Positions 22,206 to 30,703 of a stretch of DNA of 53,233 nucleotides are shown here, in pieces; position 1 is the stretch's first letter, and every line of letters begins with the position of its first letter. The DNA lies in assembly GCA_020443425.1 (NCBI GenBank), contig JAGRIE010000027.1, positions 1 to 53,233 on the forward strand. The letters run 5' to 3'. Source of the stretch: Halioglobus sp. GTDB taxonomy: Bacteria > Pseudomonadota > Gammaproteobacteria > Pseudomonadales > Halieaceae. Below the pieces are notes generated by a model that worked only from the letters and a program-made list of their open reading frames with translations, did not search any database and was not told where the DNA came from. Both the position numbers and the translations under genes were made by a program.

Positions 22206-25200
22206 ATGCAGAACCCACCCGGACCCGAGAGGCGCGTCCCGGCCATTACTTACCCTGAAGAGCTGCCGATGTCTGAGAGCCGGGACGAGATTGCGCGCGC
22301 GATCAATGCCAACCAGGTGGTGATTGTCGCGGGGGAGACCGGCTCGGGAAAAACCACCCAGCTGCCAAAAATCTGCCTGGAACTCGGTCGCGGCGCGACG
22401 TCCCTGATCGGCCATACGCAGCCGCGTCGACTCGCTGCGCGCACGGTGGCTGCGCGCATTGCCGAGGAGCTGCAGACCACGCTGGGCGACCTGGTGGGCT
22501 ACCAGGTGCGTTTCACCGACCAGGTGACCGCGAATACGGCGATCAAGCTGATGACCGATGGCATCCTGCTGGCGGAGATGCAGCACGACCGCCTGTTGCG
22601 CAAGTACGACACCCTGATTATCGATGAGGCCCATGAGCGCAGTCTCAATATCGATTTCCTGCTCGGCTATCTCAAGCGCATCCTGCCGCAGCGTCCGGAT
22701 TTGAAACTCATCGTGACCTCGGCGACTATCGATGTGGAGAGTTTCTCCCGTCACTTCTACAACGCCCCGGTTATCGAGGTGTCCGGCCGCACCTTTCCGG
22801 TGGAGACGCAGTACCTCGGGCTGGAGCCCGGGGAGGACGAGGATGTGACCGCGCAGATCGTGTCACTGGTGGCGGATATTGATGCCGGGCAGTTCGGCCC
22901 GCGCGGGGATATCCTGGTATTCCTGCCCGGTGAGCGCGATATCCGCGAGCTGGCGAAAGCGCTGCGCCAGGCCACAGAGCTGGATATCCTGCCGCTGTAC
23001 GCCCGCCTGAGCCAGTCCGAGCAGAACCGGGTGTTCGACCGCTCCGCTCGCAAGTCCGGCATCCGGGTGGTGCTGGCGACCAATGTCGCGGAGACCTCCC
23101 TGACCGTACCCGGTATCCGCTATGTGATCGATCCGGGCCAGGCGCGCATCAGTCGCTACAGTCACCGCACCAAGCTGCAGCGATTGCCGATTGAGCCGGT
23201 CTCCCAGGCCAGTGCGGACCAGCGCAAAGGGCGCTGTGGACGGGTCGGCCCCGGGGTCTGCCTGCGCCTGTACAGCGAGCAGGACTACCTCAGCAGGCCG
23301 CGCTTCACGGATCCTGAAATCCAGCGCACCAACCTCGCTGCAGTGATCCTGCAGATGCTGACACTGGGCCTGGGCGAGGTGGAACAGTTTCCATTTATCG
23401 ATCCCCCGGATGTGCGCATGGTGCGCGACGGCTACAAGCTGTTGCAGGAACTGGGTGCGGTCAGTCGCAGGGGGGCGCTGACCGAGGTCGGCAGGCGCAT
23501 GGCGCGGCTGCCGGTGGACCCGCGCCTGGCGCGAATGGTACTGGCGGCCTCGGAGCAGGACTGCCTGGCGGAAATCCTGGTGATCACCAGTGCGCTGACG
23601 GCGCAGGACCCGCGCGAGCGGCCGCCGGAGAAGCAGCAGCAGGCGGACCAGATGCACGCGAGGTTCCGCCACCCACGCTCGGATTTCATGGCCTGGCTCA
23701 GCCTCTGGCGCTACTACGAGGAGCAGCGGCAGGCGCTGAGCCAGAACCAGTTGCGGAAATTGATGCAGCGCGAATTCCTGTCCTTCCTGCGCATGCGCGA
23801 GTGGCGCGACATCCATATGCAGCTCAGTATCGCGTGCCGCCAGCAGGGGCTGAAAGCGGCGTCCGTGCTGCCGGGGGAGGAAAACTACCAGGGCATCCAC
23901 ACCGCACTGCTGAGCGGGCTGTTGAGCAATATCGCACAGCACGATGAGAAGCGTGATTATCTCGGCAGCCGCAACCGCAAGCTGCAGATCTTCCCGGGGT
24001 CCTCACAGGCGCGCAAGTCACCGAAATGGCTGGTGGCTGCTGAAATCGTGGAGACCTCGCGGGTGTTTGCGCGGGAGGTGGGCGCGATAGAGCCCCAGTG
24101 GGCGCTGGGTATCAACCCGGATCTGCTCAAACACCACTACTATGAGCCGCGCTGGCAGGCGCGTCGGGGGCAGGTGGTGGCCAGTGAGCGAATCAGCCTG
24201 TACGGGCTCACGCTGGCCGATAAACGGGTAGTGCACTACGGGCCGCTGGCGCCTGCGGAAAGCCGTGAACTGATGATCCGTGAAGGCCTGGTGGCCGGTA
24301 ATTTCCGCCAGTACCCGAAATTCCTCAAGCACAACCGGCGCCTGGTGCAGGAGCTCGAAGAACTGGAGTCGCGCACCCGCCGGCGCGATATCCTGGTGGA
24401 TGAACAGGCGCTGTTCGAGTTCTACGACGAGCGGCTTCCCGAGTCCATGGTGACGGCGACCGCGCTGCGCACCTGGTTGAAACGCAACCCCGAGGGCGAG
24501 CGCTCGCTCTATATGACGCGGGAGGTGTTGATCGCCCGCGATCCCGGTGCCGCGGTGGGTGAGCAGTTCCCCAATGAGCTGGAGTGGGAGGATATGCGTT
24601 TCAAGCTCAGCTACCAGTTCGAGCCGGGGCAGGAGGCCGATGGCGTCTCCGTCACGATTCCGGTGGCACTGCTGAACCGGGCCCCGCGCCACCTGTTTGA
24701 CTGGTTGGTGCCGGGCCTGCTGCGCGAGAAGTGTATCCAGCTGGTCAAGAGCCTGCCGAAGGACAAGCGCAAGCACCTGGTGCCAGCCCCGGATTTTGTC
24801 GACCGGGCGCTGGAGCAACTGCCAGCGGCGGATGTCGATTTACTGGCCAGCCTGGCACAGCAGTTGTCGGCGCTGGGACGGGTCGCGGTGCACCGCGACG
24901 ACTGGGCGCAGCAGAAGCTCGACGACTATTACCGCATGAACATCCGTGTGGTCGATGCCCGGGGCCAGCTGCTGGGCCAGGGCCGCGACCTGCAGGCACT
25001 GGTGCGGGAGTTTCGCGAGGACACGCGGCAGAGTATCAGTGCCAGCCCACAGTCATCTCCGGCGCGCGAGGGCATCACACGCTGGGATATGGGCGAGCTG
25101 CCGCAGGAGTGGCGATTCCGCCAGGCCGGTATCGATATCGTCGCCTACCCGGCGCTGGTGGATAAAATCGACAGTGTTGCCATCGAGCTGTGTGACTACC

Positions 25201-25952
25201 CCGGTGAGGCGGCCACCCGCCACCGCCTGGGGGTGCTGCGCCTGCTGCGACTGGCGGGTGCGCAGCAGGTCAAGTTCCTGCGTAAACAATTGCTGCGAGG
25301 CAACGAATGCCACCTGATGCTGGCCGCGGCGCAGCTGGAGCGCGGCGCCCTGGTGGAGGACATGATTGACGCCGCGTACATGCAGGGGGTGCCTCTGCAA
25401 CAGGCGCTGCCGTTCAGCGAGGCGGCGTTCAGCGCGCTGGAGCAGGCGGCCAGGGGCGATGTCATCGGCCGGGCCAACGATATCGAGGCGACGCTGCTCA
25501 ACGCGCTGCGCGCGCTCGCTGACATTCGTCGCCGCCTGGCGGCACTGCCGCCCGATAAGTGGCGCGATACTCGCGATGATATAGAAGCCCAGTTGTCGCG
25601 CCTGTGGTGTGAATCCTTCCAGCGTGACACCCCTGCCGAGTGGCTGGCGCAGTACCCTCGCTATATGAAGGCATTGCAGCAGCGACTCGAGCGTCTGGCG
25701 GGGCAGTATCCCAAGGACCAGAAGTACACGAGTTCGCTGGCCGCGCTGGAGCAGCCGTTGCAGGAGGCGCTGCTGCGCCGTCCGGGGCTGCTGCAATTGA
25801 GCCCGGAGGCCAGCACCTACCGCTGGATGCTGGAGGAGTTCCGGGTGTCCCTGTTTGCCCAGAATCTCGGCACACGGCAGGCCGTGTCGCAGAAGCGCCT
25901 GCAGGAACAGTGGCAGGGTGTCAGCCGCTACCTGCAACAAAACCCTCATTAA
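22206..25952 (+). CDS. hrpA: ATP-dependent RNA helicase HrpA (DEAH box)
   Basis: A 1248-residue DEAH-box helicase. Motif I is GETGSGKTT (43-51) and motif II is DEAH (140-143). Motif III SAT lies near 171, and motif VI reads QRKGRCGRVGPG near 338. These are followed by the HA2 and OB domains and the long C-terminal region characteristic of HrpA (DUF3418). It is somewhat shorter than E. coli HrpA because the N-terminal extension before the ITYPEELP block is short; I kept the ATG at 22206, just before that block. HrpA helps rescue stalled or collided ribosomes and process mRNA. A weak hairpin (AAAACCC with GGGTTTT, 25939-25963) overlaps the stop. Confidence 0.95.
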   Translation: MQNPPGPERRVPAITYPEELPMSESRDEIARAINANQVVIVAGETGSGKTTQLPKICLELGRGATSLIGHTQPRRLAARTVAARIAEELQTTLGDLVGYQVRFTDQVTANTAIKLMTDGILLAEMQHDRLLRKYDTLIIDEAHERSLNIDFLLGYLKRILPQRPDLKLIVTSATIDVESFSRHFYNAPVIEVSGRTFPVETQYLGLEPGEDEDVTAQIVSLVADIDAGQFGPRGDILVFLPGERDIRELAKALRQATELDILPLYARLSQSEQNRVFDRSARKSGIRVVLATNVAETSLTVPGIRYVIDPGQARISRYSHRTKLQRLPIEPVSQASADQRKGRCGRVGPGVCLRLYSEQDYLSRPRFTDPEIQRTNLAAVILQMLTLGLGEVEQFPFIDPPDVRMVRDGYKLLQELGAVSRRGALTEVGRRMARLPVDPRLARMVLAASEQDCLAEILVITSALTAQDPRERPPEKQQQADQMHARFRHPRSDFMAWLSLWRYYEEQRQALSQNQLRKLMQREFLSFLRMREWRDIHMQLSIACRQQGLKAASVLPGEENYQGIHTALLSGLLSNIAQHDEKRDYLGSRNRKLQIFPGSSQARKSPKWLVAAEIVETSRVFAREVGAIEPQWALGINPDLLKHHYYEPRWQARRGQVVASERISLYGLTLADKRVVHYGPLAPAESRELMIREGLVAGNFRQYPKFLKHNRRLVQELEELESRTRRRDILVDEQALFEFYDERLPESMVTATALRTWLKRNPEGERSLYMTREVLIARDPGAAVGEQFPNELEWEDMRFKLSYQFEPGQEADGVSVTIPVALLNRAPRHLFDWLVPGLLREKCIQLVKSLPKDKRKHLVPAPDFVDRALEQLPAADVDLLASLAQQLSALGRVAVHRDDWAQQKLDDYYRMNIRVVDARGQLLGQGRDLQALVREFREDTRQSISASPQSSPAREGITRWDMGELPQEWRFRQAGIDIVAYPALVDKIDSVAIELCDYPGEAATRHRLGVLRLLRLAGAQQVKFLRKQLLRGNECHLMLAAAQLERGALVEDMIDAAYMQGVPLQQALPFSEAAFSALEQAARGDVIGRANDIEATLLNALRALADIRRRLAALPPDKWRDTRDDIEAQLSRLWCESFQRDTPAEWLAQYPRYMKALQQRLERLAGQYPKDQKYTSSLAALEQPLQEALLRRPGLLQLSPEASTYRWMLEEFRVSLFAQNLGTRQAVSQKRLQEQWQGVSRYLQQNPH

Positions 25953-25999
25953 ATTGGGGTTTTAGGGCTGGGAGTCGCCGGTGTTTCTTCCCTGTGCGC

Positions 26000-26028
26000 G
26001 GAAACTTATCGTTTGCTATCCTGTCATA
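26000..26028 (+). promoter_or_regulatory. Candidate ECF sigma-factor promoter for the RiPP locus
   Basis: GGAAAC at 26000-26005 and GTCATA at 26023-26028 are separated by exactly 17 bp, the arrangement typical of ECF-type promoters (GGAAC, N16-17, GTC). It lies 100 bp before the precursor ATG. Comparable EGxCG/MNIO operons in other bacteria are induced by metal or oxidative stress through ECF sigma factors. No sigma or anti-sigma gene is present in this window. Confidence 0.55.
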
Positions 26029-26127
26029 ACTGCCACGAGGTGGGTTTCATGTCGCTCTGCGCTGGGGTCGCTTCGGGTTGTTTGCTTCACGAACCTTGTT
26101 TTCTCAGACCACTGACAGGAATTTATT

Positions 26128-26472
26128 ATGGCTAATTCAAAAAAACCGCTGGCAGCTGCACTGGGCGCTGCATTTCTGGCGACTTCCATTGCTCCTCTGG
26201 TAACTGCAGAGACCAATCCATTTTCCGCACAGCAATTGAGCGGTGGCTATAACCTGGCCAACTACGACAAGCACGAAGAGGGCAAGTGTGGCGAAGGCCG
26301 GTGCGGCGACAGCAAAGCTGAGGGCGAAGGCAGCTGCGGCGAGAAGGCCGACGGCGAGGGCAGCTGTGGCGAGAAAGCCGGTGTTGAAGGCAGCTGCGGC
26401 GAAAAAGCGGGCGGCGAAGGCAGCTGCGGCGACAAGAAAGCCGAGGGTGAAGGTAGCTGCGGCGGTCACTAG
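26128..26472 (+). CDS. Secreted EGxCG-repeat RiPP precursor (HvfA-like)
   Basis: A 114-residue precursor. The signal peptide (about 1-27, ending VTA) is followed by a short linker and a low-complexity core with seven EGxCG motifs (Cys at 54, 59, 70, 80, 90, 100 and 111). Every cysteine of the protein lies in one. The last five are EGSCG at about 10-residue spacing, encoded by an imperfect 30-bp repeat. In characterised relatives an MNIO enzyme with its partner modifies such cysteines (oxazolone and thioamide formation), giving copper-binding peptides. The two partner genes follow with overlapping ends. A candidate ECF promoter precedes it. The modification here is inferred, not seen. Confidence 0.88.
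26284..26463 (+). repeat. Imperfect 30-bp tandem repeats encoding EGSCG units
   Basis: The core coding region contains about five units of the form GAGAAAGCC-GGC-GAAGGCAGCTGC-GGC, each encoding E-K-A-x-G-E-G-S-C-G with small changes (for example GVEGSCG in the third). The GGCAGCTGCGGC part is nearly invariant. Such repeats can expand or contract by slippage, so the number of modified cysteines may differ between strains. Confidence 0.75.
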
Positions 26473-27329
26473 TGGCGCAATCTGACCGGGTGCTCCAGGG
26501 AGCGGGACTCGGTCTGCGGCGGGCCCTGCTGGGCCCGCTGTCATCCATGGACCACGGAGAGGTCGATTTTTTGGAAGCGGCACCGGAGAACTGGATCGGT
26601 GTCGGGGGGCGTTTCGGCAAACAGTTTCGCGCGCTGGCCGAGCGCTACCCGCTGGTGCTGCACGGTTTGTCACTGGATATCGGCGGCCCCGACCCCATCG
26701 ACACCGACCTTGTGCGCGCCGTGCGTGACCTGATGCGTGAGGTGGATGTGCCGCTGTACAGCGAACACCTGACCTACTGCGCCGCCGAGGGACATTTGTA
26801 CGACCTGTTGCCGATTCCGTTTACCGAGGAGGCTGTGCACCATGTCGCCGCGCGGGTGCGCCAGGTGCAGGACATCATCGGTCGCCCCATCGCGCTTGAA
26901 AACGCCTCGTACTACGCGCAGCCGCACACCGAGCTGACGGAGGCGCAGTTTATCAATGCCGTGCAGCAGGAGAGCGGATGCGACCTGCTGCTGGATGTGA
27001 ACAATGTCTACGTCAATGCGATCAATCACCGCTACGACCCCGACGCATTCCTGGATGCACTGTCACTGGAGCGCGTGCGGTATATCCACATCGCCGGGCA
27101 CTTTGACGAGGCGCCGGACCTGAAAGTGGATACGCACGGCGCGGATGTCATCGATCCGGTCTGGGCACTGCTGGCTGGCGCCTACCGTCGCCTCGGCCCG
27201 GTGCCCACGCTGCTGGAGCGAGATTTCAATTTCCCGCCGCTGTCGCAACTGCTGCTGGAGGTGGCCCGAATCAGGGCTGTGCAGCGGCAGGAACAGTGCG
27301 ATTTGCCTGTGGAGATGGCGGCCCGGTGA
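26472..27329 (+). CDS. MNIO family (DUF692) RiPP-modifying iron oxidase, HvfB-like
   Basis: A 285-residue TIM-barrel protein of the multinuclear non-haem iron oxidase family. Recognisable blocks are [51 protein letters not shown] and HIAGHFDE; their His, Glu, Asp and Asn residues ligate the iron cluster in family structures. The gene begins with GTG, whose G is the last base of the precursor stop, so translation is coupled. It should act on the cysteines of the precursor at 26128 with help from the downstream partner. Family assignment is secure; the exact chemistry is inferred from relatives. Confidence 0.92.
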
Positions 27330-28099
27330 GCGATTCAGCGCTGCAAGCCAGCCAGCTGTCGATGGCACGCTATCTGCGAAATCCCGGCCAGTACCCACCC
27401 CCGGCAGGGATAGAGCCGCGCCGCCTGAGGATCTACGAGCGGCTGGTGTACAACAATATCGAGGGATTTATCAGTGGCGGCTTCCCGGTGCTGCGTACAC
27501 TGTACGAAGATGCGGCCTGGCATGCACTGGTGCGCGCTTTCATCGACCAGCACCGCTGCCACACCCCTTACTTTCTCGAAATCAGCCAGGAATTCCTGCA
27601 CTTCTTGATGCACGACTACCCGCTGCAGGCTGATGATCCCCCGTTTATCGCGGAACTGGCCCACTACGAGTGGGTGGAGCTGGCGCTGGATATCTCCGAG
27701 GAGGTGTTACCAGCGCCGGTGGCGCTGGGAGACATACTCGCCGCGCCGCTGCAGCTGTCGCCCCTGGCCTGGTTGCTGAGTTACCGCTACCCGGTGCACA
27801 GGATAGGCCCGGCTTTCAGGCCCACGGAGGCAGCTGCGCCGACTTATCTGGTAGTCTACCGGGATCGCGGGGACAAGGTCGGTTTTATCGAACTCAATGC
27901 GGCCACTGCGCGCCTGCTGGAACTGATCCGGGACAACGCAGGCGCAACCGCCGGCGCGCTGCTGGCAGCGCTGGCGGAGGAGATGGGGCAGGCCCGCGAG
28001 CCGATACTGGCGTATGGGGAGGAGCAGATCAGGCAGTTGGCGGAGCGGACGGTGATAATGAGACCTGCATCACCCCACCCCCCCACCCCCCCTGAATAA
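27326..28099 (+). CDS. RiPP partner protein with DUF2063 domain, HvfC-like
   Basis: A 257-residue protein. The N-terminal DUF2063 helical domain (about 10-95) contains [21 protein letters not shown] second alpha/beta domain (about 135-235) contains YLVVYRDRG and [15 protein letters not shown]. In related loci this protein forms a complex with the MNIO enzyme and presents the precursor. The start is GTG overlapping the MNIO stop (GTGA). The extreme C-terminus is encoded by C-rich tracts (two runs of seven C at about 28078-28092), giving SPHPPTPPE; slippage there would alter only the last residues. Confidence 0.88.
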
Positions 28100-28173
28100 G
28101 GGCATATTCACCGGTTGAACCGAAAGCGCGCTGCGCGTACCATCGCTCCCTTTCTTGCCGACAAATCTCTGAA

Positions 28174-28896
28174 ATGGCTTTACTGCGTTGTTTGCTGCTG
28201 CTGTCGATAGCGCTCCCGGTCCTCCCTGTCTGGGCGGAGGAGGGCGACGAGCGGAATATTGACCCCTGGGAGCCGATGAACCGTCGTATTTTCAGCTTTA
28301 ATGAAACACTCGACGATTACATACTGCTGCCCGCCGCCAAGGGCTATCGCTACGTCATGCCCGACCCCGCAGAGCGCGGGGTCACCAATTTCATCTCCAA
28401 TGTCTACGAGTTCAACTCCTTTTTCAACTCGCTGCTGCAGGGGCGTCCCGGCAATGCACTGCAGAGCGCAGCCCGCTTTCTGGTGAACACCACCGTGGGC
28501 TTGGCAGGTTTCATTGATGTTGCCACCGAGATGGGGATCGAGCACAGTCCGGCCGATTTCGGACAGACCCTCTACACCTGGGGCGTCGATTCCGGCCCCT
28601 ACCTGATGCTGCCGGTGTTCGGTCCGCATACGGTTCGCAGCAGTGCGGGCTATTTTGTCGACACCTACACCTCCATTCCCGGCCTGATCGAGGACAGGGA
28701 GTGGGCCTACCTGTTCTGGACGGTAGAAGCGGTCGATCTGCGCGCCAACCTGATCAAGGCGGACGACCTGGTCACCGGGGATCGCTATATTTTCGTCCGC
28801 AATGCCTACCTGCAGCGGCGCCAGTATTTCCTCACGGGGGAGGTGCAGGACAGCTTTACCGAGCAGGAAAAGCCGGACGATTATCTGGAATTCTGA
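28174..28896 (+). CDS. mlaA: MlaA/VacJ family outer-membrane lipid-asymmetry protein
   Basis: A 240-residue MlaA protein, with the family blocks NIDPWEPMNRRIFSFNETLD, NFISNVYE, FLVNTTVGLAGFIDVA, DFGQTLYTWGV and YLMLPVFGP. MlaA removes mislocalised phospholipids from the outer leaflet of the outer membrane and passes them to MlaC. The N-terminal 21 residues form a signal peptide, but no cysteine lies at the cleavage region (PVWAEEG), so it does not look like the usual lipoprotein. The start lacks a good ribosome site. No other mla gene is near. Confidence 0.92.
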   Translation: MALLRCLLLLSIALPVLPVWAEEGDERNIDPWEPMNRRIFSFNETLDDYILLPAAKGYRYVMPDPAERGVTNFISNVYEFNSFFNSLLQGRPGNALQSAARFLVNTTVGLAGFIDVATEMGIEHSPADFGQTLYTWGVDSGPYLMLPVFGPHTVRSSAGYFVDTYTSIPGLIEDREWAYLFWTVEAVDLRANLIKADDLVTGDRYIFVRNAYLQRRQYFLTGEVQDSFTEQEKPDDYLEF

Positions 28897-29034: not shown

Positions 29035-30219
29035 ATGACTGCTTCACACGGCAATGTACTGATCGTTGACGACCTTCCCGAGCGCGCTGAATCGATGGCC
29101 AGTTTCCTCACGTCCGCCGGTTTCAATGTGGAGGTGGTGACTGACGTCAGCAACACCGTCTACTCACTCGGTGCTGACAGCGAGATAGATGTCATCCTGT
29201 GTGAACTCGATCTGAGGAATTTCTCCTGGTCTGATGCCCGACGCGCGTTGCGCGAGATGGATGTGCAGGTGCCGTCAATCATGTTCTGCGATGTGGCTGA
29301 CCCGGAGCGGATGATGACAGCGCTGCGGCTCGGCGCCAGTGACTTCTTCCTGCGCCCGATCGAGGACAAGGATGCCCTGATCCGCTCAATCGAACGCTGT
29401 GTACAGCAGCGCAACCTGCGCCGGGAGCTGCGCGAGTCGCGGCAGCGGCTTGAAGCTGCCAATATGGAGTTGCGCGGCACCGTCAAGATGCTGGAACAGG
29501 ACCAGCAGGCCGGTCGGCAGGTCCAGATGCGCATGTTGCCGGTGACACCGATGGTGCTGGATGATTATGTATTCAGTCACACGGTGATCCCGTCGCTGTA
29601 CCTCAGCGGTGATTTCACTGACTATTTCACCGTGGGCGACCATTACGTGATATTTTTCATGGCCGATGTCTCCGGCCATGGCAGCTCCTCGGCGTTCGCC
29701 ACTGTGTTGTTGAAAAACCTGTTTGCCCGCAAGCGGTCCGATTACTCGCGTCACCGCAGCCAGTCCATACTGGAGCCCGTGTCCATGCTGCAGCACGCGA
29801 ACAAGGAACTGCTGGACCTGGGCGTGGATAAATTTGCCACGATGGTGGTGGGATTGCTGGATATGCGCCAGAATACATTACGGTACAGTGTCGCCGGGCA
29901 TCTGCCGTTGCCCGTGCTGGTTTCCAGTGAGGGTGCCCGCTACCTGCAGGGCGAGGGCGCCACCGTGGGCCTGATGGAGGACGCCGCGTATGAAGAGCAT
30001 GTCATCGATCTACCGGACAGTTTTATGCTGGCGCTGTTTTCCGACGGTATCCTGGAAATTCTCCCGCAGATGAGCCTGGTGGAGAAAGAAGCGTATTTCC
30101 TCAAGGTCTTTGAGGAGACCTCGGATTCGCCGGAGCAACTGGCGAAGCATCTCGGCCTGGATCACGTCGAGACTGCGCCGGACGATATTGCGGCGCTCTT
30201 TGTGATCAAGCGTGGTTGA
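29035..30219 (+). CDS. HsbR-like response regulator with PP2C (SpoIIE) phosphatase domain and degenerate receiver
   Basis: A 394-residue protein. A receiver (about 6-125) is followed by a coiled coil (about 130-168) and a SpoIIE/PP2C-type serine phosphatase (about 180-394) with GDFTDYF, ADVSGHG and FSDGILE. The phosphatase metal-binding aspartates look intact. The receiver is altered: the phospho-acceptor position is Glu57 (ILCELDL), the conserved Lys is Arg (FLRPI) and the Thr/Ser switch is Cys (MFCDV). Relatives dephosphorylate a STAS anti-sigma antagonist in partner-switching control of motility, biofilm and stress. The candidate partner is the next gene, whose ATG is 2 bp downstream. Confidence 0.88.
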   Translation: MTASHGNVLIVDDLPERAESMASFLTSAGFNVEVVTDVSNTVYSLGADSEIDVILCELDLRNFSWSDARRALREMDVQVPSIMFCDVADPERMMTALRLGASDFFLRPIEDKDALIRSIERCVQQRNLRRELRESRQRLEAANMELRGTVKMLEQDQQAGRQVQMRMLPVTPMVLDDYVFSHTVIPSLYLSGDFTDYFTVGDHYVIFFMADVSGHGSSSAFATVLLKNLFARKRSDYSRHRSQSILEPVSMLQHANKELLDLGVDKFATMVVGLLDMRQNTLRYSVAGHLPLPVLVSSEGARYLQGEGATVGLMEDAAYEEHVIDLPDSFMLALFSDGILEILPQMSLVEKEAYFLKVFEETSDSPEQLAKHLGLDHVETAPDDIAALFVIKRG

Positions 30220-30220
30220 T

Positions 30221-30703
30221 ATGACACAGGGGCGCATTCTCGCAGCCAGCCAGGACGGCGCGTATGTTATCCGACTCGAAGGCGATGTGCGTCTCACGCT
30301 GTGTACCACCATCGACGATTACATCGAGAAAATGTTCGCCGATCCGGAATTTGCCAGTGTCTGGGTGGATTTGTGCGCCGCCGAGGGCATCGACAGCACA
30401 ACGCTGGGCCTGCTGGCCAGGCTGGCGTTGAAGGTGAAGGAGCGGTTCGGCTTTACGCCCGCGATCTACTCCTGTGATCCCGGTATCAACCGCCTGCTCA
30501 GGAGCATGGCGTTTCACCGCCTGTTCGAATTGCATGAAGAGGTGTGCAGCAACCCCGACAGTATCGAAGAGATACCCACAGTGATCGGGAGTGAGGAGGC
30601 GGTGAAGCAGAAGGTCATTGAAGCCCACCGCGTCCTGATGGGGATATCGGATGAAAACCGCGATCGCTTCAAGGACCTGATTACCGCCCTGGAGTGCGGC
30701 TGA
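30221..30703 (+). CDS. STAS-domain anti-sigma-factor antagonist, HsbA-like
   Basis: A 160-residue protein with a STAS domain in the first 100 residues. The phosphorylatable serine is probably Ser59 in EGIDSTTLGLLARL. The helical C-terminal extension (about 110-160) is longer than in SpoIIAA and similar in size to HsbA of Pseudomonas. In that system the antagonist, when dephosphorylated by HsbR, binds the anti-sigma factor. ATG 30221 starts just after the phosphatase stop; GTG 30212, overlapping the upstream gene, is an alternative. No HptB or anti-sigma gene is visible here. Confidence 0.85.
   Translation: MTQGRILAASQDGAYVIRLEGDVRLTLCTTIDDYIEKMFADPEFASVWVDLCAAEGIDSTTLGLLARLALKVKERFGFTPAIYSCDPGINRLLRSMAFHRLFELHEEVCSNPDSIEEIPTVIGSEEAVKQKVIEAHRVLMGISDENRDRFKDLITALECG

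Follow-up and report, generated by a model that had tools for sequence, protein, structure and literature searches.

A Halieaceae-type operon for a predicted copper-binding peptide, with a conserved RpoE-like promoter and EGxCG motifs in two contexts

The peptides described as oxazolin, Buf_EGKCG and captophorin carry 5-thiooxazoles and bind copper, oxazolin having been revised to a 5-thiooxazole structure in PMC13097082. The minimal case in the available text of that paper is fonABC of Fontimonas thermophila, which consists of exactly three genes (precursor, MNIO and DUF2063 partner) and yields fontiphorin with seven 5-thiooxazole sites; fontiphorin and gonophorin both bind copper. FonBC acted on a substrate with two repeats but left one with a single repeat unmodified, and it accepted Ala, Arg and Thr as the third residue of the motif, Ser not being named in the portions of the paper at hand. 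The mmrABC operon of Microbulbifer encodes 5–8 cysteines and its flanking ORFs were judged unrelated, DoxX going unmentioned in the part of the text available (PMC12538549); its product bulbicupramide is a Cu(I) binder with no appreciable binding of Ni(II), Zn(II), Mn(II) or Fe(III). The MmrA-C proteins were undetected with added copper, and, in what we have of that account, the authors were reluctant to assign a role in copper protection. The hvf product of Haemophilus influenzae has six 5-thiooxazoles (PMC13419390, from the accessible text), and, according to the accessible part of PMC7907618, hvf has a linked DoxX gene and RpoE2 of H. influenzae controls that species' homologous DoxX operon after hypochlorite. 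The bufferins Buf1 and Buf2 are likewise described, in the text available of PMC12452194, as having a signal-peptide precursor, an MNIO and a DUF2063 partner.

We have analysed here a stretch of 53,233 nucleotides from Halioglobus sp. (the window; GCA_020443425.1, contig JAGRIE010000027.1), which contains a further, Halieaceae-type case of this published kind. Precursor, MNIO (DUF692) and DUF2063 genes of HvfA/HvfB/HvfC type overlap within 26128–28099 of the forward strand. The 114-residue precursor (26128..26472) matches NF050137 at 30.9 bits (cut-off 19.5), and the 285-residue MNIO (26472..27329) belongs to the HvfB family by NF003818 (422.1 bits, cut-off 360) and to DUF692 by PF05114 (342.9 bits, cut-off 25). 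The partner (27326..28099) matches NF050145 at 306.3 bits (cut-off 142) in a scan that used the frame from GTG 27296, which is likewise open; its 257 residues are counted from GTG 27326. PF09836 and PF22106 score 88 and 106.8 bits. The precursor TAG (26470–26472) overlaps the MNIO GTG start at 26472, and the MNIO TGA (27327–27329) overlaps the partner GTG within the sequence GTGA. A first-pass annotation had proposed an MNIO operon of this type with genes overlapping end to end and 26472–27329 as DUF692, and the NCBIfam and Pfam profiles and the coordinates agree with it on these points; the oxazolone/thioamide chemistry that it attributed to the relatives is outdated by the revision of oxazolin in PMC13097082, as given in the text available.

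The HvfB and HvfC families are shared with H. influenzae hvf, but the precursor scores 21.3 bits against the strict HvfA equivalog NF050188 (cut-off 95), so strict HvfA identity is not claimed. The MNIO falls below the cut-offs for BufB (NF050167, 270 against 310 bits), the bufferin precursors also differing from the one here, and for the methanobactin enzyme MbnB (TIGR04159, 44.1 against 325 bits). Among solved structures, the MNIO is closest to 3BWW (E 3.7e-82) and the partner to 3DEE (E 9.2e-13), the two named for this class in the available text of PMC13097082. The same source names Arg15-Arg16 and Asp249-Phe250 of FonB, and these are matched at the level of motifs, rather than through an alignment with FonB, by LGLRR (13–17) and ERDFN (249–253), which are kept in 76 and 77 respectively of 78 aligned rows, window included. 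The assembly has a single PF05114 match. Relatives of the MNIO at 77–90% identity come from Halioglobus and from gammaproteobacterial or proteobacterial records; 352 plasmid records also encode relatives, all below 60% identity among the matches listed. A small ORF at 26049 (28 codons, three Cys) that overlaps the precursor start was set aside, as by eye it has no counterpart upstream of the nearest relatives. Within 25900–28250 the sole Rfam match is below the gathering score, lies on the opposite strand at 28020–28076, and is taken as chance.

The EGxCG motif occurs seven times in the precursor, starting at residues 51, 56, 67, 77, 87, 97 and 108, and each of the seven cysteines lies within one of these copies, as first noticed from the letters. 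The first two form an adjacent pair of ten residues (26278..26307), and the other five are solitary EGSCG motifs (26326..26463, starting at 26326, 26356, 26386, 26416 and 26449), all on the forward strand. A ten-residue EKAxGEGSCG unit had been suggested; spacings run 5, 11, 10, 10, 10 and 11, so the unit is only partly exact. The core is not unusually short, as had been thought, since 114 residues and seven motifs fall within the range of the relatives compared. Residues 1–28 (26128..26211) constitute what we judge from the sequence, rather than from a predictor, to be a Sec-type signal peptide region, closely kept in relatives, and a conserved 12-residue leader block follows at residues 30–41 (26215..26250). 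In nine hand-picked family precursors the signal peptide and leader block are closely conserved and the repeat array is variable, with N30, P31, F32, A34, L37, S38, G39, G40 and Y41 invariant; the leader block is a probable recognition element. An AlphaFold2 model of the precursor gave no confident structure (mean pLDDT 43.4, pTM 0.11).

The operon is situated between an hrpA-type helicase gene (22206..25952; DUF3418 at 619.3 bits, plus helicase domains) and an mlaA-type lipoprotein gene (28174..28896; PF04333 at 243.8 bits), both on the forward strand, outside the operon, and serving as syntenic anchors. All 30 of the Halieaceae-type regions compared show this arrangement on one strand; 27 of them are distinct, three contigs having been entered twice (L032/L148, L036/L166 and L041/L160). 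The named Microbulbifer loci L046 and L050 share the slot, so the operon is probably the counterpart of mmr, with which it also has in common the A-B-C order and the EGxCG repeats, the mmr repeats being EGKCG in the text available of PMC12538549. Zhongshania loci L042, L052 and L069, and loci L058 and L059, occupy it too. Among 11 mlaA loci of relatives inspected for an empty site, seven have hrpA less than 200 bp from mlaA (G005, G006, G007, G010, G012, G020 and G021); one more is cut by a contig end (G003), and three outside the family lack hrpA. Six of the seven empty-slot genomes have no HvfC match over the cut-off, and G020 has a DoxX-linked cluster elsewhere. Because of these empty sites, we take the operon to come and go as a unit. 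We also observed that the six same-genus genomes with no HvfC over the cut-off (G003, G005, G006, G007, G010 and G012) are 3.0–3.3 Mb, as against 3.5–5.4 Mb for those that have one, two of the six being 74% complete and G006 having a weak partial match. Farther downstream in the window, 29035–30703 encodes a response regulator that resembles RssB and carries a SpoIIE phosphatase domain (366.6 bits to NF045505, short of its cut-off of 700), followed by a small ORF; most of the regions compared retain this stretch behind mlaA.

No DoxX gene adjoins the operon, as the first-pass annotation had said, and the single DoxX match of the assembly (94% complete) is on another contig, C143. This is the rule in the family and does not single out a minimal variant: of the 28 over-cut-off HvfC loci in the window's family, two (G016:C49 and G020) have DoxX within 3 kb, as have seven of 11 outside it, with positions compared by hand from the profile-match tables, the G045 gene (one of the seven) being upstream on the opposite strand, the G025 contig ending 490 bp downstream, and a weak match (28.5 bits) lying 5.3 kb away at G016:C17. 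No DoxX was found at Microbulbifer L046 and L050 either, and the locus matches fonABC, as described in the available text, in its minimal three genes and seven motif sites. In two Alcanivorax loci (L062 and L065) the hrpA/mlaA slot carries DoxX between HvfC and mlaA, and so DoxX has come or gone within the slot itself. The family also has a second type of cluster, at G016:C49 (L115) and G020:C2 (L116), which combines an EGKCG-pair precursor, HvfC and a linked DoxX, and is without the GAAACT form of promoter. At G011:C23 (L114) and G026:C10 (L120) an EGKCG precursor adjoins DoxX with no HvfC on the contig and no MNIO in the stretch compared; these are possibly orphan precursor-DoxX pairs.

Upstream of the precursor is an ECF-type promoter, GAAACTT-N15-GTCATA (26001..26028, forward strand), with a geometry like that of RpoE promoters. 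The RpoE promoter consensus is GGAACTT-N15-GTC, and the -35 of the operon is GAAACT rather than GGAACT. The GTCATA-ending form occurs once in the assembly, at this position. The annotation had drawn attention to GGAAAC-N17-GTC, which it placed 100 bp upstream; it is at 26000–26025, 128 bp before the precursor ATG, and is weak by itself, a match turning up in 27 of 100 shuffled versions of the window, but the ECF-type site is borne out by conservation. A broad form is present in 42 of the 80 precursor upstreams with at least 130 nt of sequence (shuffle mean 3.99, largest 8). The refined form GAAACT[TA]-N15-GTC, which was chosen on the same sequences in which it was later counted, is found in 26 of 30 Halieaceae-type upstreams including that of the window (mean 0.02 and largest 1 in 200 shuffles; 0 on the reverse strand). 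These 30, comprising 24 from the window's family and six named MAG or genome records, are part of 40 leader-matched upstreams that are related rather than independent, together with nine others and L003, which was dropped (17 nt). The form is missing from L013, L016, L018 and L021, and, among family loci outside the 30, from L012, L115 and L116 and not from L118; [GA]AACTT-N15-GTC occurs in six of the nine upstreams that are not Halieaceae-type.

The Microbulbifer upstreams are different. The refined form is in none of 27 distinct upstreams, two looser forms are in two and nine of them (shuffle means 0.04 and 3.45), and a TATAAT/TATACT box is in 24 (shuffle mean 1.71). These come from 31 loci, of which L256 and L268 have no precursor, leaving 29 upstreams (27 distinct); most of the loci (g34) were assigned via their precursors, those of L253 and L266 being identical to L046 and L050, and the promoter site could fall outside L247, L258 and L267 because less than 120 nt is available there. 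With 26 of 30 set against 0 of 27, the two groups seem to drive the operon differently. By eye, many Microbulbifer upstreams (e.g. L240–L266) also have a conserved GGTCT-type element ahead of the TATAAT/TATACT box.

Five sigma-model matches in the assembly exceed the cut-off; that on contig C88 is RpoE (TIGR02939, 290 bits), and three (C139, C222 and C167) are untyped. Upstream of the C88 rpoE gene, at a distance of 88 nt from its start, is GAACTA-N15-GTC, and 38 stretches around sigma genes (L168–L205) contain six loose matches, both observations standing without a chance control; in three stretches (L168, L200 and L203) the form is ahead of the sigma match, L168 and L203 being typed RpoE. 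Genome-wide the pattern is at background, with five sites against six for a reversed control, and we read no regulon from it. One such match, G000:C133:38039-38063 (L144), is just before a gene that by eye resembles an SCO-type copper chaperone, and at G000:C148 (L170) a sigma gene is followed by one that by eye resembles a cupin-type ChrR anti-sigma factor. Taken together, the promoter suggests RpoE-type envelope-stress control of the Halieaceae-type operon, the assignment to RpoE following from the likeness in promoter geometry. The idea of a distinct stress signal, raised in the first-pass annotation, thus has some support from promoter conservation.

The residue at position 3 of the motif depends on context. 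Precursors were called by rule in 108 loci (82 non-redundant), and 80 were counted after removal of near-duplicates. Lys is present in 484 of 499 adjacent motifs, those with a neighbour five residues off, and solitary motifs have Ser in 74 of 143 and Lys in 55. Shuffling letters within each precursor gave a mean of 46.4 and a maximum of 57 solitary Ser in 5000 draws, against the 74 observed. When the precursors were grouped on their leader patterns, which placed 79 of 82 and brought a few rows from outside the family into the Halieaceae-type group, solitary Ser was more frequent than shuffling predicts in the Halieaceae-type set (50 of 71; reached in 0 of 2000 draws) and Lysobacter (12 of 18; 0 of 2000), weakly so in Zhongshania (4 of 13; 38 of 2000) and among Alcanivorax-type precursors (3 of 6; 90 of 2000), and not in the remaining precursors (5 of 29; 806 of 2000) or in Microbulbifer (1 of 35; 678 of 2000), where 29 of 35 solitary motifs have Lys. 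The Microbulbifer pattern thus differs from the five solitary EGSCG of the window's precursor, as do the FonA repeats quoted in the available text of PMC13097082, which have Lys at position 3 and are set apart by that description. Tandem copying of units accounts for part of the split, and a state of at least two solitary Ser requires at least 12 changes on the MNIO tree, a quick reconstruction that leaves 27 forks open and has some long branches flagged. EGSCG is absent from the text available of PMC13097082 and from the MNIO papers among the matches listed, whose supplements, outside the search, may list it.

We propose, with a probability of roughly 0.85, that this is a Halieaceae-type copper-peptide operon under an RpoE-type promoter, in which HvfB and HvfC make 5-thiooxazoles and the peptide holds copper(I) in the periplasm. 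Transcription would start under envelope stress; the HvfB-HvfC complex would recognise the conserved signal peptide and NPFSA leader and oxidise the EGxCG cysteines, with removal of four hydrogens each, to 5-thiooxazoles; and the modified peptide would then pass through Sec into the periplasm and hold copper(I) there by its thiols. The operon, families, leader and promoter conservation and synteny were computed here, and the 5-thiooxazole chemistry and copper binding are expected by analogy with published relatives; the periplasmic location and modification of solitary motifs in the same manner as adjacent ones are likewise presumed. The family models, the MNIO motifs, the 3BWW/3DEE likeness, the slot shared with Microbulbifer, the promoter in 26 of 30 upstreams and GAACTA-N15-GTC before the C88 rpoE gene all argue for this proposal. 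Counting against it are the failure of FonBC to modify a one-repeat substrate, with five of seven motifs here solitary, the four of 30 upstreams and three further family loci that lack the promoter, the GAAACT form of the -35, the background level of the pattern genome-wide, the score below the NF050188 cut-off, and the failure to see MmrA-C under copper, the FonBC and MmrA-C points being as given in the text available.

Several other readings should be considered. An unlikely one is that the adjacent pair alone is modified and that the five solitary EGSCG keep free cysteines for metal or redox buffering, giving a peptide that is part thiooxazole and part thiol. The FonBC behaviour with one- and two-repeat substrates points this way, and the Lys and Ser preferences of adjacent and solitary motifs would fit two roles. 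However, FonBC is tolerant at position 3, albeit with Ser not among the residues named in the portions available, the solitary motifs of Microbulbifer mostly have Lys, and the L016 precursor has eight motifs, none adjacent, and yet retains its MNIO, which is hard to explain if solitary motifs are never modified. Somewhat less doubtful, although still improbable, is that the peptide acts mainly against envelope oxidative stress such as hypochlorite, with copper binding secondary. The conserved RpoE-like promoter, the RpoE2 control of the homologous DoxX operon and the absence of detectable MmrA-C under copper are consistent with this, the last two as reported in the text available, but the published copper binding of the Microbulbifer product, fontiphorin and gonophorin speaks for copper, and stress-sigma control and a copper function are mutually compatible.

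A distinct DoxX-less variant devoted to another metal, as the first-pass annotation envisaged, is very improbable. The operon does lack an adjacent DoxX, but so do 26 of 28 HvfC loci in the family within 3 kb, in keeping with the published fon and mmr loci, and bulbicupramide, as far as the available text goes, showed no appreciable binding of the four other metals listed above. Building on the proposed copper-peptide operon, we tentatively entertain a further possibility, about as doubtful as the oxidative-stress role, that Halieaceae have wired it to RpoE envelope stress, unlike Microbulbifer with the same slot, and that the sites of the precursor fall into two functional classes, the adjacent Lys pairs jointly holding copper and the solitary Ser motifs serving some other purpose or binding in another geometry; such a split would have arisen repeatedly.

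The promoter conservation of the Halieaceae-type operons and their solitary Ser motifs go beyond the published accounts compared, as far as the text of these is available. The conserved RpoE-type promoter points to envelope stress as a candidate inducing signal in Halieaceae, and bears on a question left by the available text of PMC12538549, namely why Microbulbifer keeps an operon whose proteins are undetected even under copper. The division between solitary Ser and adjacent Lys motifs also offers natural substrates for probing the motif context accepted by the MNIO and the holding of copper.
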